Origin: Chitinophagaceae bacterium
Lineage (GTDB): Bacteria > Bacteroidota > Bacteroidia > Chitinophagales > Chitinophagaceae
Reading direction: 5' to 3'
Assembly (NCBI GenBank): GCA_024643625.1
Contig: JAHEMO010000005.1
Location: 1 to 41,475 of the forward strand
DNA: 41,475 nt
Shown: positions 14,060-29,817 of the stretch, piece by piece
Layout: every line of letters starts with the position of its first letter
Numbering within the stretch: the stretch's first letter is position 1
Position numbers and translations under genes: made by a program
Notes under the pieces: model-generated
Told to the model about the DNA's origin: nothing
The model's database searches: none
What the model saw: the letters and a program-made list of their open reading frames with translations, nothing else

Positions 14060-14226
14060 TGCCGGTTCGTTTACCGTTATGCAAGTTTTATGGCGTTTGC
14101 TATGCCAGTGTCCTTTAGCCTTAAACCGATTGCTTGGTTTGGTTGAAATGCAACAATCACTACCTTGCTTCAAGCGCAAAAGCCATGCATAATTGTTGTT
14201 CTTCAGGTATTTTACACCTCGAACCT

Positions 14227-15273
14227 ATGAAATACTTCCCGTTAGTAATCACATTTTGGTTGGCAGCAGCATTGGCACCTGCTGCTTATGCACAAAGCAA
14301 TAAGGATACCCTGTTTTTTAAGGCAGGCAACCTTATGATTGGCGAAATAAAGTCGCTGGACAGAGGTGTGGTGACCATCGAAACAAATTACTCTGACAAA
14401 GATTTTGCGGTGGAATGGACCAAAGTGAAAAGCCTGCGATCATCCAGCCAGTTTTTAATTACGCTGTCCAACGGGCAACGCATCACGGGAACGTTATATG
14501 CGCAGGAACTTACCGACACCGTCCACATTATTGGTGTGAGTGGAAAAGTAACAACAGACCAGTCGTTTTATGTACCGGTGAGGCAAATTGTCTACTTAAA
14601 AGGCTTGAAGGAATCTTTTATCAGCAGGATGAGGGCATCTGTGGATGCAGGGCTTAATTTGACCAAAGCCAACAATCTCCGACAGTTTAATGCCAAAATA
14701 GCGCTTGGTTACACAGGCAACCACATGACATTCGATGCCTACGGTCAGGCGCTCACATCAATTCAGGATAGCGTGGAAAGAACCCAACGCCTTGATGGCG
14801 GTATCAGCTCCCAATATTTCCTGCCCAAAGATTGGTTTCTAAGCATGGGTATCAATTTTCTGGCCAATACCGAACAGGCTATAAAATTGCGTACAACAGG
14901 CAAGGTTGGCATTGGCAAATACGTCATGCACACTAATAGAAAGTATTGGAGCGCGGGCAGTGGTTTAAACATCAACAACGAGAACTTTTCTAACCAAACA
15001 TCATCAAGAAATAGTCTCGAATTTTTTGCCGCTTCGGAATTGAACTTATTTGATATAGGCGATCTTAATTTCCTTGCCAATGCATTTGTTTACCGCAGCC
15101 TTACAGAAAACAAAAGATGGCGTTCTGACATTAAGATTGATTTGAAATATGATCTGCCGCGTGATTTTTACATTAAGTTCGGAGGCACAGTAAACTATGA
15201 CAACCGGCCAGCCATCCCAGGCAATGAAACCGACTTTATTTTGACCTTTGGGGTGGGATGGGAATTAGATTAA
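14227..15273 (+). CDS. DUF481-family outer-membrane protein
   Basis: This 348-aa protein has a signal peptide (MKYFPLVITFWLAAALAPAA, cleavage near YAQ). An N-terminal beta-rich part follows (AGNLMIGEIKSLDRGVVTIE, then WTKVKSLRSSSQFLITLSNG). The C-terminal part (about 165-348) is a DUF481-like beta-barrel resembling YdiY-type salt-induced proteins, ending DFILTFGVGWELD. The reaction or ligand is unknown. I start it at ATG 14227 because the frame upstream of this Met lacks any signal-like character, whereas the signal peptide begins precisely here. It lies 167 bp after proS with no terminator seen between them. Confidence 0.75.
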   Translation: MKYFPLVITFWLAAALAPAAYAQSNKDTLFFKAGNLMIGEIKSLDRGVVTIETNYSDKDFAVEWTKVKSLRSSSQFLITLSNGQRITGTLYAQELTDTVHIIGVSGKVTTDQSFYVPVRQIVYLKGLKESFISRMRASVDAGLNLTKANNLRQFNAKIALGYTGNHMTFDAYGQALTSIQDSVERTQRLDGGISSQYFLPKDWFLSMGINFLANTEQAIKLRTTGKVGIGKYVMHTNRKYWSAGSGLNINNENFSNQTSSRNSLEFFAASELNLFDIGDLNFLANAFVYRSLTENKRWRSDIKIDLKYDLPRDFYIKFGGTVNYDNRPAIPGNETDFILTFGVGWELD

Positions 15274-15405
15274 CAAAAGTTACAAGAGGTACTATGGACA
15301 GACCTCCCCGGCAGCGCGCCTAACCGACCGGTCACGCTTCAAAATTTACAGTAAATACCTTTTGTTACCATTTACTGAAAATGAACAGCATTTTGCTGGG
15401 CGACA

Positions 15406-15435
15406 TTGTTTTGTTGAAATGGGCGGCTACCTTTG
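15406..15435 (+). promoter_or_regulatory. Consensus Bacteroidota promoter
   Basis: TTG at 15406-15408, a 19-nt spacer and TACCTTTG at 15428-15435 match the -33/-7 consensus exactly (TAnnTTTG). Transcription would start near 15442, about 27 nt before the ATG at 15469. An in-frame TTG inside this -7 box is therefore not the start codon. Confidence 0.7.
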
Positions 15436-15468
15436 ACCAGAATTTCTCTTACATTAAAAAAATTACTC

Positions 15469-15939
15469 ATGAAGAAAATTAGTCTAGCATTTACATTTTG
15501 TGTCCTTCTTCTTTCGGCCGGAGCACAATCGGAAAAGTCGGAAATGGATATGATCCGTGAAGTATTTGGTAAAGAGTGGAAAACGCTTTCGGGCGAAGCT
15601 CTTTCGCTGAATACGGCAGAAGCCGAGAAGTTTTGGCCCATTTGGGATCAATACCGTTCCGATCGCAAAAGTGTTTCGGATACGCGCATGGGACTTATAA
15701 AAAACTATGCTGACAATTATGAAAATATGACTGATGCAAAAGCTACAGAACTTGCAAAAGGCGTACTGAAAAACGAATCGGACCTGAACAAACTTAAAAG
15801 CAAATATTTCAAGAAAATGAGCAAGGCTGTATCGCCCATTCGTGCTGCCCAATTTCTGCAATTAGAAAATTATCTGGACAATCAGATAAAGGCTGCCGTT
15901 TCCGACGAATTGCCTTTTCTCCCACATCCGGTTAAATAA
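15469..15939 (+). CDS. Small secreted helical protein, unknown function
   Basis: This 156-aa protein has a signal peptide (MKKISLAFTFCVLLLSAGAQ). The mature part is hydrophilic and almost wholly helical, with a charged pattern around AEAEKFWPIWDQYRSDRKSV and a C-terminal RAAQFLQLENYLDNQIKAAV followed by a ...LPF motif. The EAxxFWPIWxxY and RFxQLENxxD patterns recur in a family of small periplasmic proteins of unknown role that look loosely like Spy/CpxP; I would not assign that function. A consensus promoter lies directly upstream and a terminator follows at 15958-15990. A fragment of a second copy of its C-terminus lies 290 bp downstream (16229-16370). Confidence 0.75.
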   Translation: MKKISLAFTFCVLLLSAGAQSEKSEMDMIREVFGKEWKTLSGEALSLNTAEAEKFWPIWDQYRSDRKSVSDTRMGLIKNYADNYENMTDAKATELAKGVLKNESDLNKLKSKYFKKMSKAVSPIRAAQFLQLENYLDNQIKAAVSDELPFLPHPVK

Positions 15940-15957
15940 CCCGAGCATATCATTTCT

Positions 15958-15990
15958 AAAAAAGCCTGACCAATTGGTCCGGCTTTTTTT
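15958..15990. terminator. Bidirectional terminator between the secreted protein and the thioredoxin relic
   Basis: A-run, GCC, GACCAATTGGTC palindrome, GGC, T8: the arms 15961-15972 and 15973-15985 pair with one mismatch. The T run on the plus strand ends the upstream gene. The complementary strand also has a T run and abuts the stop codon of the thioredoxin relic. Confidence 0.75.
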
Positions 15991-16245
15991 TATGCAAATT
16001 CCAATAGTTTATGTTGTAGCGACTTAGCATCTGCCATACCGGAATGTCGCCATACTATCCTTCCCTTTTTGAAAATAGCAAAAGTTGGAACGGCTTGTAT
16101 TTGAAGTTGCTGAGCAATTGCCGGGTTGCGGTCAATATCTATTTTCAACACTCTTTCCCTGCCTTGTACCGCCTTGCCTACCTGATGTATGGCTGGTGCC
16201 ATTGCCTTGTATGGTCCACACCATTCTGCAAAAAAATCGGCAAGG
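15990..16245 (-). pseudogene. Truncated thioredoxin relic lacking the N-terminus and the second active-site cysteine
   Basis: On the minus strand, 69 of 83 codons after an in-frame stop (16248-16250) read as thioredoxin, from DFFAEWCGPYKAMAPAIHQ to the C-terminus (RHSGMADAKSLQHKLLEFA). The first about 18 residues found in the intact copy at 26952-27248 are missing, there is no ATG before the active site, and the CGPC motif has become CGPY. The only available Met (16202) lies after the active site. A redox-active product is therefore not possible. The centre (16028-16155) is nearly identical to the intact gene while both flanks have diverged strongly. Confidence 0.9.
16028..16155. repeat. 128-bp near-identical direct repeat, copy 1 (in the thioredoxin relic)
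   Basis: These 128 bases match 26990-27117 with a single difference (T at the seventh base of CATACTATCC, C in the other copy). The 38 bases on one side match at only 21 positions and the 63 bases on the other at 43. Both copies have the same orientation and lie 10,962 bp apart. Confidence 0.95.
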
Positions 16246-16370
16246 CCTTATCACTTACCCGGGCAGATCAATTCATTCAATTGGAATCATATATCAACAG
16301 CCAGTTGAAAGCTGCAGTAGCTGATGCCCTCCCGTTTTGCCGGATCCTAAATAAAAAGATAAACCATTAA
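16229..16370 (+). pseudogene. 3' fragment of a paralogue of the secreted helical protein (15469-15939)
   Basis: Plus-strand translation gives KKIGKALSLTRADQFIQLES, then YINSQLKAAVADALPF, and a stop at 16368. This matches the C-terminus of the intact neighbour (KKMSKAVSPIRAAQFLQLEN, YLDNQIKAAVSDELPF) at 22 of 36 positions. Upstream of about 16229 the frame runs into antisense thioredoxin sequence, so the 5' three-quarters of the gene are gone. The two relics meet tail to head at a short shared A-rich stretch. Confidence 0.8.
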
Positions 16371-16801
16371 TACAGTTGCCTTGACGGAAAGTGATTTTGA
16401 TTCTGCAAGGCAACTTATTTGTCAGATCATTTGGTTATGTCCATCCCGACGAACTTACCATACTACATTCTGACATAACGACCACCAGATTAATTTGCGT
16501 ACCATCTACAAAATGGGCAAACAGGAAGACAAAATAGAAACCCATTTAAAAATTTATCAGCATTTCTATCCGTCAGCAGAAACCTAAATGCTAGATAAAA
16601 GCTAGCATCGCCACAATTAATGTCTGCCGGAACAATACCATTTTGACAAAAATTGATACTTTTTTATTAAAGAAACAATTTATTACTTATTGAGACCTTT
16701 TTGACTAGAGGAAAATTATTCCCCTTCGTAAATTTTGATAAGTTTCTCGAAATAATTGTGTATGCTTGTTGGGTATTTCTTAACAATCCATAATTGTTGC
16801 T
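16371..16801. other. AT-rich intergenic region upstream of the SusC gene
   Basis: I see no gene in these 431 bp. They hold a perfect 10-bp inverted repeat (AGTTGCCTTG 16374-16383, CAAGGCAACT 16406-16415), a 7-bp one (ATGCTAG 16588-16594, CTAGCAT 16602-16608), and a 6-bp one just before the SusC start (AACAAT 16782-16787, ATTGTT 16793-16798). TTTG at 16700-16703 and TAAATTTTG at 16729-16737 vaguely resemble promoter boxes, but the 25-nt spacing is too long. The region probably contains the promoter and any regulatory site of the SusCD cassette. No sigma/anti-sigma pair or response regulator is encoded nearby. Confidence 0.5.
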
Positions 16802-19800
16802 ATGCCAAATCTATTTCTGCGGATCGTCAGACGAATCTGTGTTCTGACCTTGCTGAGCTTATTTGCTCTTTTTTCGTTTGCCCAAAAAATTGTTACTGGT
16901 AAAGTAACCAACCCGGTTACCAAGGCGCCGATCCAGGGCGCAAGTGTTATGATTAAGGGCTCCAATAATGGAGCATCCACCGATGCTGATGGTAATTTTT
17001 CTGTCAGTGTTCCAAACAACGCAACGCTTGTTATTTCAGCCGTGGGCTATAAAACTCAGGAAGTTTCAGTAGGTAGCTTATCCAATATTTCCATTGCGCT
17101 CGAAGAAGGGGTGGAAAGGCTTGATGAAGTTGTGGTTACAGGATACACTACGCAAAGAAAAAGGGACATCACCGGAGCTGTATCCGTAGTTAATGCCAAT
17201 GACTTAAAATCCGTGCCTGCATCAAATGCCACTTCGCAGTTACAGGGCCGTGCATCTGGTGTTACTGTTGTAGAAAACGGGATACCCGGTGCGGCCTCCA
17301 CTGTAAGGATACGTGGTTTGGGATCGTTTAATAACAATAATCCGCTTTACGTAGTAGATGGTGTGCAAACAAGTAGCATCGCCTCTTTAAATCCCAACGA
17401 TATTGAAAGCATGCAAGTGCTGAAAGATGCTGCTTCTGCATCAATTTACGGCGTTAGAGGCTCAAACGGGGTAATTGTAATAACCACAAAAAGAGGCAAA
17501 TCAAGGGGAGTAAGCGTTTCCTATGATATGTTCTATGGCGTTCAGCAACCCGGAAAAGGCTTCAACCTGCTCAATGCCCAGGAGGAAGCCGAATTGCTCT
17601 TTCTTGCCAGGCGTAATAGTGGCTTGCCTACTTCTGGTTCAATTTATGGCAGCGGCACAAGTCCTGTTGTACCAGATTATATTTACTATAGCGGTGCGCC
17701 AAATAATGGTACGGCTATTACTTCTTCCAGCCCTGGCGTAGATCCCAGTAAATACAGCCTTGATTATGGCCGCCTCGGCGACCCCGGTTATTCCCCGTAC
17801 ATTATTGTACCATCAAGTCAGGGGACTGATTGGTTTGATGTGGTAACCAGAACCGCACCAATTCAGAGCCACAATATCAGCATCAATGGAATGAACGACA
17901 AAAGCCGCTACCTATTGAGTCTAAACTATTTTGACCAGCAGGCAATTACCCGCCACCAATTTTTCAAGCGATACACCGCCCGGGTAAACAGTGAATTCAC
18001 TGTAGCCAAGGGAATCAGGATTGGTGAAAATTTGCAGATAGGCTACGCAGATGCGAACGTTCCGGGTAATGCATCAACCGGAGACAACAACAACAACCAG
18101 GAGGCCAGCATCATTGCCCAAACCTTCCGGCCCATGAGTACCGTACCTGTGTACACCATAAATGGAAAGGATTTTGCCGGTACAGCCGGCGGCACCGGAT
18201 TGGGCACATTTGGTAATGCGAAGAACCCGCTTGCACTGCTCAGTCGCAATCAAAATAATCGAAACAGGGGAACTAACCTGTTTGGAAATGTGTTTGCCGA
18301 AGTAGATTTCCTGGGTCACTTCACTTTCCGCAGCAGCTTTGGTGGTGGACTTAACTATAACAACTATTTCAACTTCCCGTATGTAGAATACGAACATACC
18401 GAGAACAATGCCCGTACAACATACGATGAGGGTTTTATAAATACCTTTAGCTGGATTTGGACCAATCAAATTAATTATAAGCAGAATTTTGGTTCGCACA
18501 ACCTGAATGTTGTTATTGGTGAAGAAGCGCAGAAAGGAGGAGGTCGCCAGGTCATCGGCGCATCTACTGGCTATTACGCTTATAACTACCAGCCATTTAT
18601 CAATCTGAACAATGGTACCGTCCAAAACCTCGGTGGCAGTATCGCCTACACTCCGGTAACAACACTGTCCTATTTTGGCAAGGTGGATTACGATTTTCAG
18701 CGCAAGTATCTTGCTTCATTTACGGTTCGCCGCGATGGATCGTCCAAATTTCTTGACCCGAACAAATGGGGAACATTCCCGGCCTTCAGCCTTGGCTGGC
18801 GGATAATCGATGAATCGTTTATGCAAAATGTAAAGTTCATCAATGATCTGAAGATTCGTGGCGGATGGGGTAAAATGGGCAACGAGGCTGCTCTGAGTGC
18901 ATCCAATGCCTTTACCACTTTTGGCAGTAACCGCCAAAGTTCATGGTATGATGTTGCGGGTACACAAAACAGCCCCCAGGAAGGATTCTTTCTATCCTTT
19001 GTGGGCAACCCCCTGGGAACCTGGGAAAAAAGCATAAGTACAAATATTGGCTTTGATGCCACCTTTTTCAACAATACCACTGATATCGTGTTTGATTGGT
19101 ATAATCGTAAAACTGAAGGCTTATTGTATAATCCTGCTGGTCAGGGTATAGCGGGAGCTGTTGCGGCCAACAATCCTCCGTTCCGTAATGTGGGAAGTAT
19201 GAAGAATACAGGTATCGATATTTTGGTTACTAATCGCGCCAAGCTCAGTAAAGACTGGCGGTTAATTTCTACCCTCACATTTACCACTTACAATAACAAG
19301 ATTCTTGCAATAACAAACGACGGACAGTCATTCTTCGATTTTAATAGTCCGGCTAATGAGGCCAATCGTATTGGAGCAAATATCACCAGGAACTTCGTGG
19401 ACCAACCACTAAATACTTTTTATGGTTACCAGGTTGCCGGAATATTTCAGTCTGCCGCAGAGGTAAGCGGTGCGGCCACACAGGCAAATGCTGCTCCGGG
19501 ACGCTTCCGTTACGAGGATATTAATGGCGATAAAATTATTGATGCCAATGACAGGACAATAATCGGCGATCCAAACCCGGATTTCAGTTATGGCCTGAAC
19601 CTGGGGCTTGAGTTTAAGAATTTCGATCTGACTACATTCTTCTACGGCGTTCAGGGACGTGATCTTTTCAATTTCACCCGTTGGTGGACTGATTTCTCCG
19701 GAGGTTTTCCGGGCGGACGCAGCCAACGCTCCCTGTATGAAAGCTGGCTACCTGATGGCAGCCGTCCTAATGCCAAGACGCCGATACAGGAAACCAGTAA

Positions 19801-20077
19801 TGGCTTTAGCAGCGGAAGTGCTGTGAACTCCTATTATGTCGAAGATGGCTCCTATTTTAGGATGAGAAACCTGCAGATTGGATATAATTTTAGCCTTGAA
19901 AAATTGAAGATCTCCAATATCCGCGTATATCTGCAAGGTACCAACCTGTTTACCATAACCAAGTACACCGGACTTGATCCTGAAATTATCGTAAACGACG
20001 ATCGAGCAGCAGGCATCGATATCGGAGCCTACCCGATAGTTAAGCAATTCCTCATAGGAGCAAACGTCAAATTCTAA
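16802..20077 (+). CDS. SusC/RagA-family TonB-linked outer-membrane protein
   Basis: This 1091-aa protein is the barrel partner of the adjacent SusD. It has a signal peptide (hydrophobic RICVLTLLSLFALFSFAQ), a CarboxypepD_reg-like domain at about 30-110 (GKVTNPVTKAPIQGASVMIK, DADGNFSVSVP), and a TonB box/plug region (LDEVVVTGYTTQRKRDITGA, NPLYVVDGVQT, IESMQVLKDAASASIYGVRG) with the SusC-specific SASIYG signature. The long barrel ends in a beta-strand with terminal Phe (FLIGANVKF). SusC barrels import SusD-bound nutrients, often oligosaccharides or peptides, at TonB expense. No FecI/FecR pair or SusR/ECF regulator is visible next to it. The gene begins a plus-strand unit with SusD, the VCBS lipoprotein and the haloperoxidase. 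Confidence 0.95.
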   Translation: MPNLFLRIVRRICVLTLLSLFALFSFAQKIVTGKVTNPVTKAPIQGASVMIKGSNNGASTDADGNFSVSVPNNATLVISAVGYKTQEVSVGSLSNISIALEEGVERLDEVVVTGYTTQRKRDITGAVSVVNANDLKSVPASNATSQLQGRASGVTVVENGIPGAASTVRIRGLGSFNNNNPLYVVDGVQTSSIASLNPNDIESMQVLKDAASASIYGVRGSNGVIVITTKRGKSRGVSVSYDMFYGVQQPGKGFNLLNAQEEAELLFLARRNSGLPTSGSIYGSGTSPVVPDYIYYSGAPNNGTAITSSSPGVDPSKYSLDYGRLGDPGYSPYIIVPSSQGTDWFDVVTRTAPIQSHNISINGMNDKSRYLLSLNYFDQQAITRHQFFKRYTARVNSEFTVAKGIRIGENLQIGYADANVPGNASTGDNNNNQEASIIAQTFRPMSTVPVYTINGKDFAGTAGGTGLGTFGNAKNPLALLSRNQNNRNRGTNLFGNVFAEVDFLGHFTFRSSFGGGLNYNNYFNFPYVEYEHTENNARTTYDEGFINTFSWIWTNQINYKQNFGSHNLNVVIGEEAQKGGGRQVIGASTGYYAYNYQPFINLNNGTVQNLGGSIAYTPVTTLSYFGKVDYDFQRKYLASFTVRRDGSSKFLDPNKWGTFPAFSLGWRIIDESFMQNVKFINDLKIRGGWGKMGNEAALSASNAFTTFGSNRQSSWYDVAGTQNSPQEGFFLSFVGNPLGTWEKSISTNIGFDATFFNNTTDIVFDWYNRKTEGLLYNPAGQGIAGAVAANNPPFRNVGSMKNTGIDILVTNRAKLSKDWRLISTLTFTTYNNKILAITNDGQSFFDFNSPANEANRIGANITRNFVDQPLNTFYGYQVAGIFQSAAEVSGAATQANAAPGRFRYEDINGDKIIDANDRTIIGDPNPDFSYGLNLGLEFKNFDLTTFFYGVQGRDLFNFTRWWTDFSGGFPGGRSQRSLYESWLPDGSRPNAKTPIQETSNGFSSGSAVNSYYVEDGSYFRMRNLQIGYNFSLEKLKISNIRVYLQGTNLFTITKYTGLDPEIIVNDDRAAGIDIGAYPIVKQFLIGANVKF

Positions 20078-20112
20078 ACTGCGCAGATAAGCATTTAAAT
20101 AATAATAGAACT

Positions 20113-21825
20113 ATGAAAAACAAACCATCATTTATCACCCTTATAATCGTGGCAGCAATTGGGTTCCACGCATGCAATAAAGGGTTCCTAGACGTTAGTC
20201 CGGTTGGTGTATTAGATGAAGCAACGCTATCATCAGAAAAAGGCGTTGATAAACTTTTGATTTCCGCATATGCCATGCTCGATGGCCACGATGGCGGACT
20301 CAACCTCGGCGGCGAATGGGGATCAGGCGGTTCCAATTTCCTATATGGTGGAATTGGCGGTGGTGAAGCCAACAAGGGAAGCGATCCGGGTGACCAGGGT
20401 CCGAATATGACACCTGTCCAAAGGCATGAAGCCACCTCAACAAACGGCGCGCTAAATGATCGCTGGAAAGCAATTTACGAAGGTGTAAAACGAACCAATG
20501 TCGTTTTGCAGGTATTGGCCAAGGTGGATGGAATTACTGATGCTTCCAGAAGGAATTTGGAAGGTCAGGCACGGTTCTTGCGGGCCTGGTATCATTTCCA
20601 GGCAAAAATCACCTGGAATAAAGTGCCTTACCTCGACGAAAAAATTGATGCCGACCTCGCATCCGGTGCCATTGAAGGCGTGTCAAATGATGCCGATATC
20701 TGGCCTAACATTATTACCGATATTAAATTTGCCTATGACAATCTGCCCGAAATACAAAATGGTGTAGGGCGCGCCAATAAATGGAACGCAGGTGCATTGT
20801 ACGGCAAAATGCTTTTGTTTACCAAGGATTTTGCTACCGCTAAAACTGTACTTGCTGCTGTGGTGGCCAATGGCAAAAACCCAGTGGGGGTGAAATTTGG
20901 ATTGATGGATAATTATGATGACAATTTCAATCTCACCTTTGATAACAATAAAGAAAGCGTTTTTGCCTTCCAGGCTTCTTCGCAAGACAATGCCAGCGCA
21001 CGTAACAGCAATTGGGGCGATCTGCTGAACCTCCCTGCAACAGGCCCGGGCGGAGCTGGTTTTTATTGCCCAACGTATTATTTTACTAATCACTTTAAAA
21101 CCAATGCAAACGGGCTGCCCTTAGCTAATCCGCAAAACAATGTTGTGCTCGATCCGGCAGGTCAGGCCGGTCTTTCTCAATATAATGGCAATGTTGATAG
21201 CCGGCTGGATTGGACTGTAGGACGCAACCAGGTTCCGTACCTGGATTGGGGCACCTACTTAACCAGCTGGACCCGTGACCTTAGTGCAGGGCCTTTTGGT
21301 GCGAAGAAAACATGCATCAGGCAATCCCAGGTTGGTGAAACCCATGATGCCAGCATTTGGTTTGCGGCGGGTGGAGCTGCACTCAACCTTAACCTCATGC
21401 GATTTAGCGAAGTGTTATTGATGCTGGCAGAAGCTGAAATTGAATCTGGCAGTTTGCAAAATGCCTATACCCTCATCAACCAGGTGAGAACAAGAGCGGC
21501 TAACTCCCGCAAGGAGACCGTTCCTGCGGCCGTTGGTACCGTTAACGTAAAAGCTTATACCACACCATTCGCCAGTAAAGATGACGCCACCAAAGCGTTG
21601 AGATTAGAACGACTCCTGGAATTGGGCCTCGAAGGGCACCGCTTTTTTGACCTTGTTCGCTGGGGTATTAGTGGCACGGAAATGAATGCATATTATAACT
21701 ATGAAGCACCACTGCCATACCAGGTATTACTGAAGCCAAAGCCAACATTTGATCCAGCTAAAAACAATTATTACCCGATTCCCCAACAACAGATTGACTT
21801 GAGCAAGGGCTTTATCAAGCCATAA
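20113..21825 (+). CDS. SusD/RagB-family nutrient-binding outer-membrane lipoprotein
   Basis: This 570-aa protein starts with a lipoprotein signal (ITLIIVAAIGFHAC, lipidated Cys about 21) followed by NKGFLDVSPVG, the usual SusD N-terminus. TPR-like helices follow (NVVLQVLAKVDGITD, ARFLRAWYHFQ), and the C-terminal RagB signature is present: LMLAEAEIESGSLQNAYTLI and LERLLELGLEGHRFFDLVRW. SusD caps the SusC barrel from outside and binds the substrate. It lies 35 bp after SusC, certainly in one transcript. The ligand cannot be named: no glycoside hydrolase, peptidase or sulfatase is encoded beside the pair. Confidence 0.95.
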   Translation: MKNKPSFITLIIVAAIGFHACNKGFLDVSPVGVLDEATLSSEKGVDKLLISAYAMLDGHDGGLNLGGEWGSGGSNFLYGGIGGGEANKGSDPGDQGPNMTPVQRHEATSTNGALNDRWKAIYEGVKRTNVVLQVLAKVDGITDASRRNLEGQARFLRAWYHFQAKITWNKVPYLDEKIDADLASGAIEGVSNDADIWPNIITDIKFAYDNLPEIQNGVGRANKWNAGALYGKMLLFTKDFATAKTVLAAVVANGKNPVGVKFGLMDNYDDNFNLTFDNNKESVFAFQASSQDNASARNSNWGDLLNLPATGPGGAGFYCPTYYFTNHFKTNANGLPLANPQNNVVLDPAGQAGLSQYNGNVDSRLDWTVGRNQVPYLDWGTYLTSWTRDLSAGPFGAKKTCIRQSQVGETHDASIWFAAGGAALNLNLMRFSEVLLMLAEAEIESGSLQNAYTLINQVRTRAANSRKETVPAAVGTVNVKAYTTPFASKDDATKALRLERLLELGLEGHRFFDLVRWGISGTEMNAYYNYEAPLPYQVLLKPKPTFDPAKNNYYPIPQQQIDLSKGFIKP

Positions 21826-21859
21826 TTAAGTAATAACAAGGAGTTTACTCCACGCATAT

Positions 21860-21903
21860 AAATTAAGAAGGTAGAGCATCTGTTTGTTCTACCTTCTTAA
21901 TTT
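21860..21903 (+). terminator. Perfect 16-bp hairpin between SusD and the VCBS gene
   Basis: The arms 21860-21875 and 21888-21903 are perfectly complementary (AATTAAGAAGGTAG-type), with a 12-nt loop. The downstream arm ends in TTT with no long T run. It may be a partial terminator or an mRNA-stabilising hairpin that lowers expression of the downstream genes relative to SusCD. Confidence 0.55.
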
Positions 21904-21975
21904 GCGCAATATCCTATACGGCTTTTATAAATATTAATGCGGTTAATCATTATTATTACCGCGAGGAAAGTGAAT

Positions 21976-24900
21976 ATGACTATGCGAAGGATTTTTTTTT
22001 TCACGCTTTTCACAGCTGGCACATTTGCACTAGTAGGCTGCAATCGGCACAATGATAAATTTACACTTCTGGATGCCTCCGATACAGGTGCATCATTTGT
22101 CAATTCGGTAATTGAAAGCGATAGCATAAATATTTTCGATTTTGAAAATATCTATAATGGCGGAGGAGTGGGTATAGGCGATTTTAATGCTGATGGATTA
22201 CCTGACATATACTTCACAGGAAGCATGGTACCCAATAAATTATTCCTCAACCAGGGCGACCTAAAATTCAAAGACATAACCCAGGTGTCAGGTACCGATG
22301 GTGCAGGCAAATGGAGTCGTGGTGCCGCAGTAATCGACATCAATGGCGATAATTTGCAGGATATTTATGTTTGTACAACAGCCTACAGTGACCCCGAAAG
22401 ACGCCGTAATATTTTATATATTAATAAAGGCAACAACAAGGACGGAATTCCGGTATTCGAAGACCAGGCAAAAGCCTATGGGTTGGACGATACAACGCAT
22501 ACAACCATGGCCTACTTTTTTGATTATGATCGCGATGGTGACCTGGATGTTTACCTGGCAGTAAATCATATTGTTGAAAATGATTACCCTAATGTTTTTC
22601 AACCAAGAACAATAGATGGTACGCATCCGAGTTGCGGCCGACTTTATCGCAATGATTTTGATAGCCAGCGCCAGCATCCATTTTACACCGATGTATCAAA
22701 ACCAGCGGGTATTAAATACGAAGGTTATACGCACGCCGTAAATATTTTTGATGCTAACAATGATGGCTGGCCGGATATCATGGAAGCCAATGATTATATC
22801 AGCAATAATGTGCTTTATATCAACAACAAGGACGGAACTTTTACCGATAGCATCACCAGTTATTTTAAACATACCGCTGCCAATTCTATGGGGAGCGATG
22901 CTATCGATTTAAATAACGACGGACTTGATGATGTGATAGAAGTGGATATGGCGCCACAGGACAATTACCGAAAGAAAATGTTCATGCAGCCGGTTAATTA
23001 TACCACTTATATCAATTCTCAAATGTTCGATTACCAATTGCAATACATACGCAACATGGTGCAGGCCAATATGGGTAATACAGTTGGAGAAAACGACAGC
23101 ATTCAACATCCGGTATTTGCAGATATCGGCTATTTCAGCGGGGTAGCAGAAACCGATTGGAGTTGGTGCCCACTAATTGCTGATTTTGACCAGGATGGCT
23201 TGCGGGATATTTTGTTTACCAATGGATTTCCAAAGGACATAACTGATCATGACTTTTCTACATACCGCAAACAAGCGTACCAGCTCACTGCAAAAAAAGA
23301 AATGCTGGCGGAAATCCCTGAAGTGAAAATTCATAACTACGCCTATAAAAACAATGGCAACTTTAGTTTTGCCGATAAAACATTTGATTGGGGGTTTGAT
23401 GCACCAAGTTTTTCCAGCGGGGCAGCTTATGCTGACCTTGACAATGATGGCGACCTCGATATCATTATCAATAACATGAATGATCCTGCCTTCATTTATA
23501 GGAACAATAACAATGATGATATAAACAGCCACGCGGGATTTATTAGTTGCACTTTGGAAGGCAATAAGCAAAATAAAACAGGCATAGGTGCAAGAGTAAC
23601 TTTATATGCCAACGATATCATACAATCGATTACACAAAACCCTTACCGTGGATATATTAGTACAGTAACCACCATAATTCACTTTGGTACAAGCAACCGC
23701 AATGCTGATTCACTCGTAGTTGATTGGCCAGACGGTATGCGGCAAACTGTTATTGCACCGGCCAACAATTCTAATATTGTTTTGCGATATGCCGATGCAA
23801 AGCCAGTTACAGAACCGTCAGTTAGTGGTAGCCCGGTTAGCACGCCACTCTTTACCAATATAACAAGCGCCGCAGGCATACAATACAACCACTATCAGCG
23901 TGATTTTATTGATTTTAATATTCAAAAATTATTGCCGCATAAATTATCGGAATACAGTCCTGGCATGGCAGCAGGCGATATAAATGGCGATGGACTTGAT
24001 GACCTGGTTATAACAGCAGCACCAGGAAATGCACCTACGATACTAACACAAAACGCAAACGGAAAGTTTACGAGCAAGTTGCTGTACGACTCTGCCACAG
24101 CGGGTTATAAGCAGCAAGACGAGAGAGGCATTTTATTATTTGACGCAGATAATGACAGGGATCTTGATTTACTCATTACTTCCGGAGGCTACAGCTACCT
24201 GAGCAATGACAGTAGTTTTGCCGATATGTTCTTTATAAATGATGGAAAGGGAAATTTTATTGCCCGACACGATCTACTTCCTAAAAACAATACCAGCAAA
24301 TTGTGCATAAGGGCTTGTGATTATGATAAGGACGGGGACCTTGATTTGTTCATTTCCGGCAGAGTTCTGCCGCACTATTATCCAAAACCTGTAAGTAGTT
24401 TTATTTATCAAAACAATACAACCAATGGCCAGATAACCTTTGAAGATGTAACGGCAACAGTAGCGCCTGCACTTGGTAATATTGGCATGGTATGCGATGC
24501 GCTTTTTACGGATTATAACAATGATGGTTGGCCGGACCTGATGTTGGCAGGGGAACTAATGCCGCTTACAATATTGGATAATAACAAAGGGCAATTTGCG
24601 GTATCATCAGTAAAAGGTCTTAGCCAATTCAGCGGTTGGTGGAACTCGCTTATAGCCGACGATTTTGACTCGGATGGAGACGTGGATTATATAGCCGGAA
24701 ACCTTGGCACCAACTCTTACTTCCGAGGCAGTATCACACAACCAATGCATATTTATGCTGCCGATTATGACAGCAACGGGAGCTACGATGCCATACCATC
24801 CCTTTATTTTAAATCTACATTGGAGCTCAATGCAAAAATTGAAGAATACCCTGCTCACGGACGGGATGATATGGTAAAACAAGTACTATTTACCAGGGGT

Positions 24901-25560
24901 AAGTTCCCTACCTATAAATCATTTGCAACGGCAACAATGGACAGCCTTATACCTGCGCCATTGAGAGCCAAATCCCTTGTATTGAAAGCAAATACTTTTC
25001 AAAGTATGTACTTGCAAAATAATGGCTCCGAGGGTTTTACAATGAAACCATTGCCCGCAATGGCGCAATACAGCTCGCTAAACGGTATGCTTGCGGATGA
25101 TTTTAACCGGGATGGGTTAACTGATTTATTTGTTAATACAAATGACTACAGCGCCGACCCAAACACCGGGCGATATGATGCTTTAAACGGGCTGGTAATG
25201 TTGGGTGACGGCAAGGGCAATTTTTCGCCAATAAGTATGACCACAGCCGGTGTCACAATAAGCGGTAATGGCAAAAGTCTGGTGAAGCTCCGAAGTGCTA
25301 ATGGAAGCTACCTGGTTGCTGCCGCCCAAAATCGGGGACCGCTGCTATTATTTTCGTTGCATTACAAACCACGGCAAGTTACGGTAGAACCATATGATGC
25401 TTTTGCAATTGTTACAAATGCTGATGGCAGCAAGCATAAAATTGAATTGTACTACGGTATGTCATTTTTGTCCGCAGGCAGCAGGTTTATAACCTTACCG
25501 GAGGATGCTAAAGACTGTACTATTTATCAATATAATGGAAATAAAAGATACGTGCAGTAG
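21976..25560 (+). CDS. FG-GAP/VCBS-repeat lipoprotein with UnbV/ASPIC domain
   Basis: This 1194-aa protein starts with a lipoprotein signal (MRRIFFFTLFTAGTFALVGC). It carries about 14 calcium-loop blades of the DxNxDGxxD type, such as DFNADGLPDIYFTG, DYDRDGDLDVYLAVN, DLDNDGDLDIIINN, DYDKDGDLDLFISGR and DFDSDGDVDYIAGN. This is two sets of integrin-like beta-propeller repeats. Between them, at about residues 530-620, lies an ASPIC/UnbV segment (GIGARVTLYANDIIQSITQN, then HFGTSNRNADSLVVDWPDGM). Such proteins are extracellular or cell-surface and of unknown reaction. GAGGAAAG at 21962-21969 serves as a ribosome-binding site and selects ATG 21976 over the earlier in-frame Met. Base composition is more AT-rich than the housekeeping genes around it. 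Confidence 0.85.
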   Translation: MTMRRIFFFTLFTAGTFALVGCNRHNDKFTLLDASDTGASFVNSVIESDSINIFDFENIYNGGGVGIGDFNADGLPDIYFTGSMVPNKLFLNQGDLKFKDITQVSGTDGAGKWSRGAAVIDINGDNLQDIYVCTTAYSDPERRRNILYINKGNNKDGIPVFEDQAKAYGLDDTTHTTMAYFFDYDRDGDLDVYLAVNHIVENDYPNVFQPRTIDGTHPSCGRLYRNDFDSQRQHPFYTDVSKPAGIKYEGYTHAVNIFDANNDGWPDIMEANDYISNNVLYINNKDGTFTDSITSYFKHTAANSMGSDAIDLNNDGLDDVIEVDMAPQDNYRKKMFMQPVNYTTYINSQMFDYQLQYIRNMVQANMGNTVGENDSIQHPVFADIGYFSGVAETDWSWCPLIADFDQDGLRDILFTNGFPKDITDHDFSTYRKQAYQLTAKKEMLAEIPEVKIHNYAYKNNGNFSFADKTFDWGFDAPSFSSGAAYADLDNDGDLDIIINNMNDPAFIYRNNNNDDINSHAGFISCTLEGNKQNKTGIGARVTLYANDIIQSITQNPYRGYISTVTTIIHFGTSNRNADSLVVDWPDGMRQTVIAPANNSNIVLRYADAKPVTEPSVSGSPVSTPLFTNITSAAGIQYNHYQRDFIDFNIQKLLPHKLSEYSPGMAAGDINGDGLDDLVITAAPGNAPTILTQNANGKFTSKLLYDSATAGYKQQDERGILLFDADNDRDLDLLITSGGYSYLSNDSSFADMFFINDGKGNFIARHDLLPKNNTSKLCIRACDYDKDGDLDLFISGRVLPHYYPKPVSSFIYQNNTTNGQITFEDVTATVAPALGNIGMVCDALFTDYNNDGWPDLMLAGELMPLTILDNNKGQFAVSSVKGLSQFSGWWNSLIADDFDSDGDVDYIAGNLGTNSYFRGSITQPMHIYAADYDSNGSYDAIPSLYFKSTLELNAKIEEYPAHGRDDMVKQVLFTRGKFPTYKSFATATMDSLIPAPLRAKSLVLKANTFQSMYLQNNGSEGFTMKPLPAMAQYSSLNGMLADDFNRDGLTDLFVNTNDYSADPNTGRYDALNGLVMLGDGKGNFSPISMTTAGVTISGNGKSLVKLRSANGSYLVAAAQNRGPLLLFSLHYKPRQVTVEPYDAFAIVTNADGSKHKIELYYGMSFLSAGSRFITLPEDAKDCTIYQYNGNKRYVQ

Positions 25561-25597
25561 AGTGATGATGATGACTTGCACTTTAATAAAGATCAGG

Positions 25598-26920
25598 ATG
25601 AAAAGATTAGAATTGCTTTGTTTAATTGCTGCTCTGCTTTTTGGTAGCTGCAAGAATGCCGGCAACCCCACCGCACTGTCCAACGTAAATACAGTAGAAG
25701 CAATTCATCAAATTCAGGATGAACTGACACAAATAATTATCTATGACGTATTTACGCCTCCGGTTGCATCCCGTATATACACTTATAGCAGTCTGGCAGG
25801 TTATGAAGCCATCCGGTTTTTGGATACTTCGCGCCACTCGCTGGTAGCCCACATGAATTATTTTGGTCCGATGCCTGTGCCTGATAAAAACAAACAATAC
25901 GATTTCGGCCTGGCATATATAAAAGCATTTGCCACAGTGGCAGAAAAAGTGATTTTTAGTAAGGATACCATGCGTCAGTTTAGTACTTCGCTGATAGATA
26001 AATACAAAGCCCAACTAACGGAAACTGTTTTTGATGCTTCAATTGACTTTGGCCAGGCTGTAGCGGATAGTATTTGGATACGCGGCGCTAAAGATCATTA
26101 CCTCAGCAGCAGGGGTAAACCAAAATATCTTGGCAGTGATGCTCCCGGACAATGGCGCCCTACCCCACCCGACTATCTTGATGGCATAGAATTTTGCTGG
26201 AACGAAATAGATGCGCTTACACTTGATTCTGCGTCGCAATTTCTTCCGCCGCCGCCGCCTTCCTACACCATGGATAGCGGTTCAGTATTCTACAATATGG
26301 TAAGAGAGGTATATGATATTCAGCAAAACCTTACAGAAGAACAGCGCATCATTGCAAGATTCTGGGACGACAACCCTTTTGTGATTGAACACTCCGGGCA
26401 CATGATGTTTGGCAACAAAAAAATTACCCCGGGAGGCCATTGGATGGGCATTGCCGCTATTGCTTCAAGACAAACCGGGGCAGATGCTGTTAAAACGGCA
26501 CTTACTTACGCACTTACTGCTTCAGCATTGTTTGATGCTTTCATTTCAAGTTGGGATGCCAAGTACAAATGGAATTATATAAGGCCCATTACGGTAATTC
26601 ATGAATACTGGCAAAAGGACTGGAATCCCATGTTGCAAACGCCACCTTTTCCTGAATATACCAGCGGACACAGCACCATTACAGCCGCTGCTGCTACAGC
26701 ACTTACACATCTTTACGGACCGTCATTTGCCTTCAATGACACCAGCGAACTGCGGTATATTGGCATGCAAAGGCAATTTGAATCCTTCATACAAGCTTCC
26801 GACGAGTGTTCCGTGAGCAGGTTATATGGTGGCATACATTATAGGTTAAGTGTTGATGAAGGTGCTGTGGCAGGCAAACTTGTTGGTCAACATTTGATTA
26901 AAAGAGTCGGCTTGCATTGA
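25598..26920 (+). CDS. Vanadium-dependent haloperoxidase / PAP2-superfamily lipoprotein
   Basis: This 440-aa protein has a lipoprotein signal (MKRLELLCLIAALLFGSC). The three oxyanion-binding motifs of the PAP2/VHPO fold are all present near the C-terminus: KYKWNYIRP (K-x6-RP), YTSGHST (usually PSGH) and SRLYGGIHYRLSVD (SR-x5-H...D). These bind vanadate in haloperoxidases or phosphate in acid phosphatases. The long N-terminal helical domain with DEL...YDVFTPPVASRIY and the motif spacing fit the vanadium-haloperoxidase branch, but chemistry (halogenation versus phosphatase) cannot be told from sequence. ATG 25598 is chosen for the signal, 37 bp after the VCBS gene, so the two are co-transcribed. 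Confidence 0.85.
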   Translation: MKRLELLCLIAALLFGSCKNAGNPTALSNVNTVEAIHQIQDELTQIIIYDVFTPPVASRIYTYSSLAGYEAIRFLDTSRHSLVAHMNYFGPMPVPDKNKQYDFGLAYIKAFATVAEKVIFSKDTMRQFSTSLIDKYKAQLTETVFDASIDFGQAVADSIWIRGAKDHYLSSRGKPKYLGSDAPGQWRPTPPDYLDGIEFCWNEIDALTLDSASQFLPPPPPSYTMDSGSVFYNMVREVYDIQQNLTEEQRIIARFWDDNPFVIEHSGHMMFGNKKITPGGHWMGIAAIASRQTGADAVKTALTYALTASALFDAFISSWDAKYKWNYIRPITVIHEYWQKDWNPMLQTPPFPEYTSGHSTITAAAATALTHLYGPSFAFNDTSELRYIGMQRQFESFIQASDECSVSRLYGGIHYRLSVDEGAVAGKLVGQHLIKRVGLH

Positions 26921-26931
26921 GATGCGCTTTG

Positions 26932-26955
26932 AAAAAAACCTAAGCAGCAGCTTAA
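26932..26955 (-). terminator. Terminator of the chaperone-thioredoxin operon
   Basis: On the minus strand TAAGC, a TGCT loop, GCTTA and then T7 form a short hairpin overlapping the thioredoxin stop codon (26952-26954). It separates the operon from the convergent haloperoxidase gene. Confidence 0.6.
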
Positions 26956-27248
26956 ACAAAATTAAGCAGCGTATTTTTTAGACTTTTCCCATCTGCCATA
27001 CCGGAATGTCGCCATACTACCCTTCCCTTTTTGAAAATAGCAAAAGTTGGAACGGCTTGTATTTGAAGTTGCTGAGCAATTGCCGGGTTGCGGTCAATAT
27101 CTATTTTCAACACTCTTGCACGCCCCTGAACGGCCTTTCCCAACTGGGTTATGGCCGGAGCCATAGCCTTGCAGGGACCGCACCATTCTGCAAAAAAATC
27201 AACAAGCACAGGCTTATCGCCATTAATAATTTCAGTAAATTTTTCCAT
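26952..27248 (-). CDS. Thioredoxin (small, single-domain)
   Basis: This 98-aa protein has the complete thioredoxin fold: KPVLVDFFAEWCGPCKAMAP with the redox-active CGPC (residues 21-24), the DIDRNP loop, the conserved cis-proline region (QIQAVPTFAIFKKG) and the C-terminal helix. It reduces disulfides in the cytosol. Its start overlaps the stop of the DnaJ-like gene by one base (TGATG), so translation is probably coupled and it belongs to the Hsp20/DnaJ stress operon. It lacks a signal peptide. Its central 128 bp are shared almost perfectly with the relic at 15990-16245. Confidence 0.95.
   Translation of the reverse strand: MEKFTEIINGDKPVLVDFFAEWCGPCKAMAPAITQLGKAVQGRARVLKIDIDRNPAIAQQLQIQAVPTFAIFKKGRVVWRHSGMADGKSLKNTLLNFV
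26990..27117. repeat. 128-bp near-identical direct repeat, copy 2 (in intact thioredoxin)
   Basis: This is the partner of 16028-16155 with one mismatch in 128. It lies inside the thioredoxin coding region, from about codon 42 to codon 85. Identity falls sharply at both borders, which is what a gene-conversion tract looks like. Confidence 0.95.
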
Positions 27249-28153
27249 CAGGAATTATTTTTTAGTTCTTCAAAAAGTTGTTGCTGCCGCTCATTCAAAT
27301 GCTCCGGAATGGAAACATTTATGGTCAGGTATAAATCGCCAAATTCGCCTGAGACCGATTTGGGCATACCCTTTCCTTTCAACCGGATGGTGTGCCCGGA
27401 TTGGATGCCTGCCGGTATTTTGAGATTTACTTTTCCGGGCAGCGTTTCCACCGTTAAATGACCGCCAAGCACGGCGGTATACAAATCAATTTTTTCTGAT
27501 GCATACAAGTCATCGCCCTCCCGCTTATAGCGATGATGGGGGAGCACAGTGATTGATGCCATAAGGTCGCCTCGCCCATTGGCGCCAGCTGCACCTTTTC
27601 CTCTTGCCTTTAGTAGTTGGCCGGTGTACGCTCCGGGTTTAGTTGTCAAACGTATTTTTTCATCAGGCAACTCCACAATTCTGGTTGCACCGTGAAAGGC
27701 CTCTTCTAAAGTAATTGGTACTTCCGTTTTGTAATTCGCACCGCGGGAAGCCTTTTTTGATCCCTGATTGCTAAACCTGCCACCGAAAAACTGTTCGAAA
27801 AAGTCCGAGTGTCCACCAGCAGAAAACTTGCCGCCGCCACCAAAAAGATCATTCAAATTTCCGTCATAGTATTGATATCCCCCTTTAGCAAAATCATCGA
27901 AGTTGCTGCTATTACCCGCTTGCCTGTATTGTTTCCAATCCTCGCCAAGCGTGTCATACTTATTGCGCTTTTCCACATCGCTCAATACCTCATAGGCCTC
28001 GCTTACTTCCTTAAATTTCTCCTCCGCTTTTACATCACCGGAAGTCTTATCGGGATGATATTGCACGGCCAACTTGCGGTAAGCCTTTTTTATTTCGGCA
28101 GCCGAAGCATCGCGGGAAACGCCAAGTATCTTATAGTAATTTTTATAATCCAT
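27248..28153 (-). CDS. DnaJ/CbpA-type co-chaperone
   Basis: This 301-aa protein has an N-terminal J domain ([20 protein letters not shown], then [18 protein letters not shown] with the HPD tripeptide that triggers DnaK ATPase), a Gly/Phe-rich linker ([20 protein letters not shown]) and DnaJ C-terminal substrate-binding domains ([38 protein letters not shown]). It lacks the CxxCxGxG zinc-finger repeats of DnaJ proper, so it is of the CbpA class. I start it at ATG 28153, giving the canonical J-domain start; the longer frame upstream has no J-domain sequence. It is the middle gene of the Hsp20-DnaJ-thioredoxin unit and overlaps thioredoxin by one base. Confidence 0.93.
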
Positions 28154-28197
28154 ATTATTTAAAACGCATAGTTTGAATTTTATACACCGAATGCTAA

Positions 28198-28222
28198 ACG
28201 GGGGAAGCACTGCCTCCCCCGT
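28198..28222 (-). promoter_or_regulatory. GC-rich hairpin between Hsp20 and DnaJ genes
   Basis: ACGGGGGAAG (28198-28207) and CCTCCCCCGT (28213-28222) pair with one mismatch around a 5-nt loop. There is no T run after it on the minus strand, so it may attenuate rather than end transcription, or protect the 3' end of the Hsp20 message. Confidence 0.45.
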
Positions 28223-28245
28223 AAACGTAAGCGGTTAAGCATGGC

Positions 28246-28698
28246 CTAGTTAACTGAAATCATTTTTGCAGCCTTAGGCTTTGCTGCTTGTTTTTTGGGA
28301 AGAGTTATGTTTAAAATACCGTGATTGTAGTTCGCATCAATTTGCTCATCTTCAACATCTTCAACCGGCAGACGGAATGAACGACTGAACGAAGTGTAGT
28401 TAAATTCTTTGCGGGTATATTTTCCCTTTTCACCTGATTCCTTTTCTTCCCTACGCTCGCCATTAATGGTTAACACGCCATTTTCTAATTCGAGCTTAAA
28501 ATCTTCCTTTCTCAATCCCGGCGCCGCTACTTCAATAGCATAATCATTCTCTGTTTCTCTCACATTAACCGATGGTAATGTAGATCCAAGCGCGCTAAAG
28601 TTTTTATCGCTCCAATCAAACCAATCTTTGGTGAAAAAATCATCAAAAAAAGTTGTTGCCATCGGGAAGAGCGAATTTGATTTCATTAAAGTGCTCAT
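28246..28698 (-). CDS. Small heat-shock protein, Hsp20/alpha-crystallin family
   Basis: This 150-aa protein has an alpha-crystallin domain at about residues 48-140 (LPSVNVRETENDYAIEVAAP, GLRKEDFKLELENGVLTING) and the conserved C-terminal ILNITLPKK anchor. Its N-terminus is short and rich in Phe and Trp (FFDDFFTKDWFDW), which is typical. It holds unfolding proteins for refolding by DnaK/DnaJ. It is the first gene of the minus-strand stress operon; the DnaJ-like gene starts 92 bp downstream. A perfect AAGGAGG Shine-Dalgarno sits four bases before its ATG, unusual for Bacteroidota and consistent with a highly translated stress gene. Confidence 0.95.
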   Translation of the reverse strand: MSTLMKSNSLFPMATTFFDDFFTKDWFDWSDKNFSALGSTLPSVNVRETENDYAIEVAAPGLRKEDFKLELENGVLTINGERREEKESGEKGKYTRKEFNYTSFSRSFRLPVEDVEDEQIDANYNHGILNITLPKKQAAKPKAAKMISVN

Positions 28699-28702
28699 AA
28701 GG

Positions 28703-28709
28703 CCTCCTT
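28703..28709 (-). promoter_or_regulatory. Strong Shine-Dalgarno of the Hsp20 gene
   Basis: AAGGAGG on the minus strand lies four bases before the ATG at 28698. Most genes in this window show no such motif, so this is a notable exception and fixes the Hsp20 start. Confidence 0.7.
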
Positions 28710-28836
28710 TTTGTTGGTTAAAAAACTGGTTTACCTAGTATAAAATACAAACCTTATTCCATACCCTAAAACAAGCCATTTTAGCACTTTTAGCCGTCGA
28801 AAAAAGACGCAGTGTCAGGTTGAAAAGCAGACAAAA

Positions 28837-28854
28837 GCCACCCTGTCAGGTGGC
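28837..28854 (-). terminator. Probable terminator of the RDD gene
   Basis: On the minus strand GCCACC, TGACAG, GGTGGC and then TTTTGTCT form a six-pair hairpin with a T-rich tail, about 180 nt past the RDD stop at 29035. The rest of the 336-bp gap 28699-29034 holds the upstream region of the Hsp20 gene and one tiny ORF on the opposite strand; I recognise no other element in it. Confidence 0.5.
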
Positions 28855-28864
28855 TATCACAAGA

Positions 28865-28984
28865 ATGCAGTATTACATCGAAAAAATGAAAGGGAATCAG
28901 TTTACAACGCTAAGTTTCGAGTGGCCTAAACCGAATGAAAAACACAACCGCCTCAGCCCTAAATCGGTTTTAAAAAGCAAGTAA
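28865..28984 (+). CDS. Possible 39-aa small protein (uncertain)
   Basis: An ATG-initiated ORF on the plus strand encodes a basic, proline-containing peptide (MQYYIEKMKGNQFTTLSFEW, then PKPNEKHNRLSPKSVLKSK). There is no hydrophobic segment and no clear ribosome-binding site. It lies alone in the gap between two minus-strand genes. It could be a chance ORF. Confidence 0.2.
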   Translation: MQYYIEKMKGNQFTTLSFEWPKPNEKHNRLSPKSVLKSK

Positions 28985-29034
28985 AATGACAGGTACAACA
29001 GGACTCTTTTTGTCGCTAATTCATGCCCAATAAC

Positions 29035-29817
29035 CTACTCTCTTGTGGCCAGATAGTTATAATCGGCCAGCAATTTCTCCAAAAAGTCAATCACGTCATC
29101 GTCGTTGCTTATTTGCAGCACTTCCTTCACTTTGGCTGCTATTCTAAAGGCGGTGTCATATCTCCCCGATTTGCGGGTTTGTACAATCACGGATTTTATA
29201 GCATTGATATCACGGTCGCTCAGCATCATCACATTGGGAAACAGAACTTTATAATTACTCGGCATTATTTCCCTGAAAATAGTATCGTCAACTGAAAATC
29301 TCTGTCGCAGATTAACCACCGCAGTACCGGCAGCAAGATCGCCCAATCGTTGTCCTTTATTACTTACGGCTATCACCACAATCACTACCAAACCCACCAG
29401 CCCCGCCACCAACAACTGTGCAAACAATCCAAAATAAGAAATGCCCATACTACCAAATACAATCGGCCACTCCCATATCCTGAATATCCAGCGCATAAGG
29501 TATTGCCCTATGCCAGGTTCTCCACCCTCTATGCTCAACACCCTCAGGCCTGTGATCATTTTGCCAATGGTCTGGCCGTCAAAAATCACCTCCATTATAA
29601 GCGGATACAAAAGCATGGGTAGCGAAACCAATAACAAATCGATACCAAGGGGATAGTGTTGCGATTTAAATAGTTGTAAAATCAAAAAGCGTCCGGCATA
29701 GCCAAAGGCAATAACCACCGTGATATCAAGCACCCATGCCGCAATTCGCCTGGTAAGGGGGCTAGACTCAAAATCGAGATAAATATTATAGGGTGTGCGT
29801 ACAGATACAAACGACAT
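29035..29817 (-). CDS. RDD-family membrane protein
   Basis: This 260-aa protein has three to four hydrophobic segments (ITVVIAFGYAGRFLILQLF, LLLVSLPMLLYPLIMEVIF, FAQLLVAGLVGLVVIVVIAV). The RDD signature occurs in order: an N-terminal RRIAAWVLDITVV, GQTIGKMITGLRVL after the second helix, and GQRLGDLAAGTAVV after the last. A cytosolic C-terminal part of about 75 residues (SDRDINAIKSVIVQTRKSGR) follows, as in the RDD proteins of the MoxR-associated cluster. The function is unknown, possibly transport or envelope maintenance. It diverges from the SpoIIM gene with 127 bp between them. Confidence 0.88.
   Translation of the reverse strand: MSFVSVRTPYNIYLDFESSPLTRRIAAWVLDITVVIAFGYAGRFLILQLFKSQHYPLGIDLLLVSLPMLLYPLIMEVIFDGQTIGKMITGLRVLSIEGGEPGIGQYLMRWIFRIWEWPIVFGSMGISYFGLFAQLLVAGLVGLVVIVVIAVSNKGQRLGDLAAGTAVVNLRQRFSVDDTIFREIMPSNYKVLFPNVMMLSDRDINAIKSVIVQTRKSGRYDTAFRIAAKVKEVLQISNDDDVIDFLEKLLADYNYLATRE

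Follow-up and report, generated by a model that had tools for sequence, protein, structure and literature searches.

An accessory island from a little-studied genome, with relatives among the Bacteroidota, appears to hold two old copies of a thioredoxin gene, and the patch of about 128 bp in which they are nearly identical was probably produced by recent ectopic gene conversion, possibly with a crossover. The right copy (B) is intact. The left copy (A) has lost its start and a catalytic cysteine and is fused, probably by way of a deletion, to the 3' end of a second copy of g168, a gene for 168 amino acids. The locus is a fresh instance of a known process, the ectopic recombination tract. It was found in the window, the whole stretch of 41,475 nucleotides that was analyzed, which is contig 72 of a 3.63 Mb genome assembled in 394 contigs and 90.4% complete. 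Comparisons used one genome per species, and the species itself is represented by one genome. The island and its neighbors are listed in Table 1; nine island proteins were scanned against Pfam at a cut-off of E 0.001.

Table 1. Genes, repeats and borders of the island in window coordinates
Feature	Position	Strand	Basis or remark
ProRS, left border gene	12581-14059		synteny with congeners
Accessory island	14060-29034		ProRS-RDD synteny; borders are gene ends, no mapped junction
DUF481 protein, left end of island	14134-15273	+	Pfam
Intact g168, 168 aa	15433-15939	+	ORF list; no Pfam match at E 0.001
Relic thioredoxin A, codons 15-98 and matching stop	15990-16244	-	alignment with intact gene
Homogenized tract	16028-16155		127/128 identical to 26990-27117
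3' remnant of second, diverged g168 copy, fused to relic A	16230-16354	+	sequence comparison with g168
SusC-like outer-membrane transporter (Plug, CarboxypepD_reg)	16802-20077	+	Pfam; SusC label from SusD partner
SusD-like lipoprotein	20113-21825	+	Pfam
FG-GAP / UnbV_ASPIC repeat protein (UnbV)	21937-25560	+	Pfam
PAP2-superfamily protein	25505-26920	+	Pfam
Intact thioredoxin B, third in Hsp20-DnaJ-Trx	26952-27248	-	Pfam PF00085, E 3.7e-27
Tract partner within intact thioredoxin gene	26990-27117		alignment
DnaJ (J domain and DnaJ_C)	27248-28210	-	Pfam
Hsp20 / alpha-crystallin chaperone	28246-28698	-	Pfam
RDD gene, right border gene	29035-29817		synteny with congeners

The thioredoxin pair is the sole repeat family that a repeat finder (seed 14, minimum length 30) reports in the window. 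It forms a direct repeat of 255 bases, 15990-16244 matching 26952-27206 in the same orientation at an offset of 10,962 bases. Within the tract only one position differs (16058/27020) and an exact run of 97 bases is shared (16059-16155). Outside it, identity drops to 21/38 on the left (15990-16027) and to 67/89 on the right (16156-16244), 43/63 of the latter at 16156-16218. Homology ends leftward at a common stop codon (15990-15992), beyond which 12/50 positions agree, and rightward at a fusion point near 16230-16245, with 10/42 identical beyond 16244. A preliminary description of this DNA had given the same identity counts (127/128, 21/38 and 43/63) and had placed direct repeats about 11 kb apart; both are reproduced here.

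The step is sharpest at silent sites. Over the 30-codon flank, A and B differ by 15 silent and 7 replacement changes (pN 0.10), over the 42 tract codons by one replacement and no silent change in 28.2 sites, and over the 12-codon tail by 6.5 silent and 10.5 replacement changes, the high pN of 0.38 marking the tail as weakly constrained. On the recomputed alignment pS is accordingly 0.75, 0 and 0.765 in flank, tract and tail: next to the tract the silent sites approach saturation, inside it they are unchanged, and the transition is abrupt. Selection on the protein is ruled out as the source of the identical patch, as silent sites are affected too. Similarly, the fall of silent divergence from near saturation to zero leads us to reject uniform divergence after a young duplication, in agreement with the earlier view that the step is conversion-like. 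The flank of the relic gathered most of its changes while the gene still functioned, given a pN of 0.10 against a pS of 0.75. In 200,000 shuffles of the 85 aligned codon columns, no run with at most one mismatch extended to 128 bases (0/200,000; the longest was 107 bases), and an exact run of 97 bases or more arose once (1/200,000). Bounded identity, a step at silent sites and a run length beyond chance, three features expected of a conversion tract, are all present at this locus. Recombination between the copies is the only process considered that fits the step, whereas uniform divergence and protein constraint do not.

Relic A lacks codons 1-14 and reads WCGPY where B reads WCGPC, such that the catalytic cysteine is gone. 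From 16244 onward its frame is uninterrupted until a stop that coincides with the one of the intact gene. The g168 remnant fused to it shares 55% amino-acid identity with residues 124-163 of g168 and is frameshifted near its end. The relic is thus what is left of two oppositely oriented genes, a thioredoxin and a second g168, the latter a diverged copy and no recent duplicate. Viewed base by base, about 16 bases at 16230-16245 are compatible with both parents, as expected for a deletion over short shared sequence. The left copy may once have had a DnaJ and an Hsp20 of its own, as the right copy has. Searches of 16245-16801 recovered no trace of a second DnaJ or Hsp20: when the stretch was translated in six frames and compared with 235 foreign loci, and when the proteins of the window were compared with it, the only matches below E 0.1 were to g168.

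The preliminary description regarded the two thioredoxin copies as brackets around a cassette. That picture does not survive comparison with congeners. The distance between ProRS and the RDD gene, taken by ORF ends, was readable in four of nine congeners and measures 1629 bp in G002 and G006, 73 bp in G003 and 1277 bp in G009; the stretches from G001, G004, G005, G007 and G008 did not contain both genes. Because the two genes are 73-1629 bp apart in these four, the island is estimated to span approximately 14060-29034, or about 15 kb. None of the four gaps contained a match at E 1e-6 to thioredoxin, DnaJ, Hsp20, SusC/D, UnbV, PAP2, DUF481 or g168, and relatives of g168 and DUF481 are present elsewhere in some congeners. 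The repeats are therefore internal by ProRS-RDD synteny, which also rules out the relic as an edge of the accessory DNA; the copies, at 15990 and 26952, would both sit inside the island and away from its borders. The statement that the DNA between the repeats is accessory stands for what is mainly a four-gene module plus relic DNA; it falls short in that DUF481, g168, Hsp20-DnaJ-Trx and both thioredoxins belong to the island as well. All four readable congeners lack the whole island at this site, an arrangement that differs from the predicted deletion product discussed below, in which a single repeat copy would persist.

The ProRS-RDD gap is a variable spot in its own right, 73 bp long in G003 and 1.3-1.6 kb in G002, G006 and G009. 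The three longer gaps hold a long ORF (392 aa in G002 and G006, 365 aa in G009) whose start overlaps ProRS and which, from a reading of the translation, looks acyltransferase-like in G002 and G009. Another locus (L085) carries ProRS and a thioredoxin on one contig, yet the two are 6.4 kb apart, the thioredoxin lies on the ProRS strand, unlike in the window, and it is 54% identical; this candidate was set aside.

In gene content, the island joins two modules that occur separately elsewhere in the family, namely SusC-SusD-UnbV-PAP2 and Hsp20-DnaJ-Trx. The former was surveyed in seven long stretches of DNA that surround the nearest relatives of PAP2. Its four genes occur in the same order in four of them (L230, L231, L234 and L235), with 2.3 kb separating UnbV from PAP2 in L231. 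The order is also kept in L236, where SusC and SusD are matched only in part and 2.9 kb precede PAP2, and two stretches (L232, L233) end inside UnbV. The closest module among the seven, in G080, shows identities of 64, 66, 57 and 58% for SusC, SusD, UnbV and PAP2, respectively. No thioredoxin match at E 1e-5 was found in any of the seven stretches. In the window, the ORF list has the UnbV and PAP2 frames overlapping by 56 bases (25505-25560). Foreign PAP2 matches begin at residue 19-40 in 18 of the 19 best loci and at 61 in the remaining one, so the true PAP2 start may lie later. The label haloperoxidase for this gene comes from the preliminary description; Pfam assigns it to the PAP2 superfamily.

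The second module places thioredoxin B directly behind DnaJ, its first base being the last base of the DnaJ frame (27248; ORF list). The best DnaJ match in the nine other congeners reaches E 4.9e-30, several of these genomes being incomplete, down to 61%. Of 147 genomes of the family, the window's own among them, 81 carry a DnaJ of this type at E 1e-50 or better. Among the 29 best foreign DnaJ loci, from 80 other genomes with a match, a thioredoxin lies within the 1.5-kb flank in eight and Hsp20 in five, and all three genes are together at L174, L183 and L184. At the DNA level, a search of Hsp20-DnaJ-Trx against 394 family genomes (own included) gave four best foreign matches of 69-77% over 180-347 bases, with shorter conserved stretches of up to 92% over 65 bases; two first-look candidates were scored per genome, which leaves room for a recent source.

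In a tree of 35 thioredoxins (98 columns, 8 of 32 inner branches strongly supported), A and B group (90/98) with their DnaJ-linked counterparts in G091 and G095, which represent two further genera of the family, apart from five congener thioredoxins; the placement of A is partly due to the tract. The divergence of the pair is on a par with that of these relatives, A and B being identical at 68/90 positions of the 30-codon flank and the G091 and G095 orthologs also at 68/90. Within the tract, A and B are equally far from both outgroups (84 and 83 of 126), and the comparison singles out neither copy as the donor. DnaJ-linked thioredoxins do not form one group, requiring five changes, of which at least one is forced by strongly supported branches, and those of L183 and L184 lie across the root as drawn. 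Because they are scattered in the tree, thioredoxin and DnaJ may have become linked in more than one event.

Four congeners carry a thioredoxin about 8 kb downstream of SpoIIM (L155, L156, L157 and L161). The SpoIIM-side thioredoxin has no close match in the window's genome, the best hit of the G003 query being island copy B at 47%. At 90.4% completeness the gene may have been missed; the island thioredoxin may also have replaced it. In the one-contig genome G009, the match to the SpoIIM-like gene (G009:C1:2879808-2880777) breaks into three segments with shifts of frame, and the gene may be a pseudogene or contain sequencing errors.

How did the pair acquire its patch? In the history that we favor, two old thioredoxin copies would have co-resided in the island until homologous recombination, presumably of the RecA type, recently copied the patch between them, perhaps with a crossover. 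The left copy has also lost its start and catalytic cysteine, and a deletion over the 16 or so bases compatible with both parents would have joined it to the end of the second g168. The order of these events is our reconstruction. The main rival is a Campbell-type entry by single crossover, in which a resident thioredoxin would have recombined with a circle that carried part of a diverged thioredoxin gene together with the g168 remnant and SusC-SusD-UnbV-PAP2. The resident gene would now be split into the tail of A and the head of B, and the tract would mark the crossover with its repaired heteroduplex. Such an entry would explain by a single event why direct repeats lie on either side of a module, and the four-gene module does occur elsewhere in the family with no match to thioredoxin. 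Moreover, a resident gene rebuilt in silico from A tail, tract and B head is a complete 98-codon thioredoxin beside DnaJ. The outgroups lean slightly in the same direction: against G091 and G095, the tail of A matches at 19/36 and 19/36 and that of B at 13/36 and 16/36, while the head of B matches at 61/90 and 60/90 and that of A at 57/90 and 56/90, although these differences amount to a few bases and the head of A may have drifted as a relic. Truncation of the relic would still require a separate event, no integrase or plasmid gene was recognized among the nine island proteins scanned, and we know of no free circular form of the module. Taken together, Campbell-type entry seems unlikely.

An artefact of assembly or polishing, with reads of one copy used for the other, has to be weighed for so fragmented an assembly (394 contigs), and the exact run of 97 bases is comparable in length to short reads and k-mers. 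The contig nonetheless passes through both copies, the tract retains one mismatch and the flanks are probably too different for easy cross-mapping; even a misjoin at the shared run would require that the run be real. We regard an artefact as highly improbable. A young partial duplication, in which a piece of gene B was copied to the left site, is what the tract taken alone would look like. In-frame homology nevertheless continues at a lower level on both sides of it and ends at the matching stop, and a fresh insertion would not sit inside the rest of an old thioredoxin gene, for which reason this origin is rejected as scarcely credible.

Conversion between the two old copies also carries a prediction. 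Recombination performed in silico within the 97-base run removed 10,962 bp, comprising SusC, SusD, UnbV, PAP2 and the g168 remnant, and left an intact 98-codon hybrid thioredoxin that takes its tail from the relic and follows DnaJ in frame. The one-step deletion proposed earlier is thus permitted by the direct repeats and its product is tidy in silico, and a further exchange in the tract is predicted to delete these 10,962 bp. A strain without the 11-kb segment would carry exactly one such hybrid, ending in the relic's tail. Should strains of this kind turn up, a pair of thioredoxin fragments would be enough to render a SusCD-type uptake module optional; should there be none, this would be an ordinary case of known processes. 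A bolder idea, which we consider a long shot, is that the relic serves as a recombination handle, with repeated exchange keeping the tract identical while the module could leave, and a circle re-enter, through ordinary homologous recombination, in effect a recombinase-free swap site built from a broken gene of housekeeping type. The module would then be optional while the stress genes always retain a complete thioredoxin gene. The locus is in any case a clean example of a recombination tract, its silent step occurring within a few bases.

The excerpts available from the literature on gene conversion and its tract lengths, on repeat-mediated deletion and on stress loci contain no description of this locus, and they offer several parallels. 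The tufA/tufB genes and rRNA operons are, according to those excerpts, paralogs that are locally more alike than their age allows, silent sites included (PMC6053082, PMC8022953). The A/B pair resembles them in being locally too alike for its age, also at silent sites, and differs in that the patch is short, the genes are a small pair and one of them survives as a truncated relic. For an E. coli genomic island, the portion available describes a deletion between short repeats in direct orientation (PMC5426353); the repeats here share the same orientation and lie inside the island, and their deletion product is a prediction. Another relevant system is the transmissible locus of stress tolerance (tLST), characterized in the available part of its description by a dna-hsp20-clpG core, occurrence in Proteobacteria and, generally, flanking mobile elements (PMC8290217). 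Neither a Clp protein at E 0.001, and hence no tLST core, nor a transposase was found among the nine island proteins scanned with Pfam. As in tLST, where accessory Hsp20 and thioredoxin genes travel with other protein-quality genes by the same partial account (PMC8290217), chaperone and thioredoxin genes keep company here; unlike in tLST, the set is Hsp20-DnaJ-Trx and its host a genome with Bacteroidota relatives.
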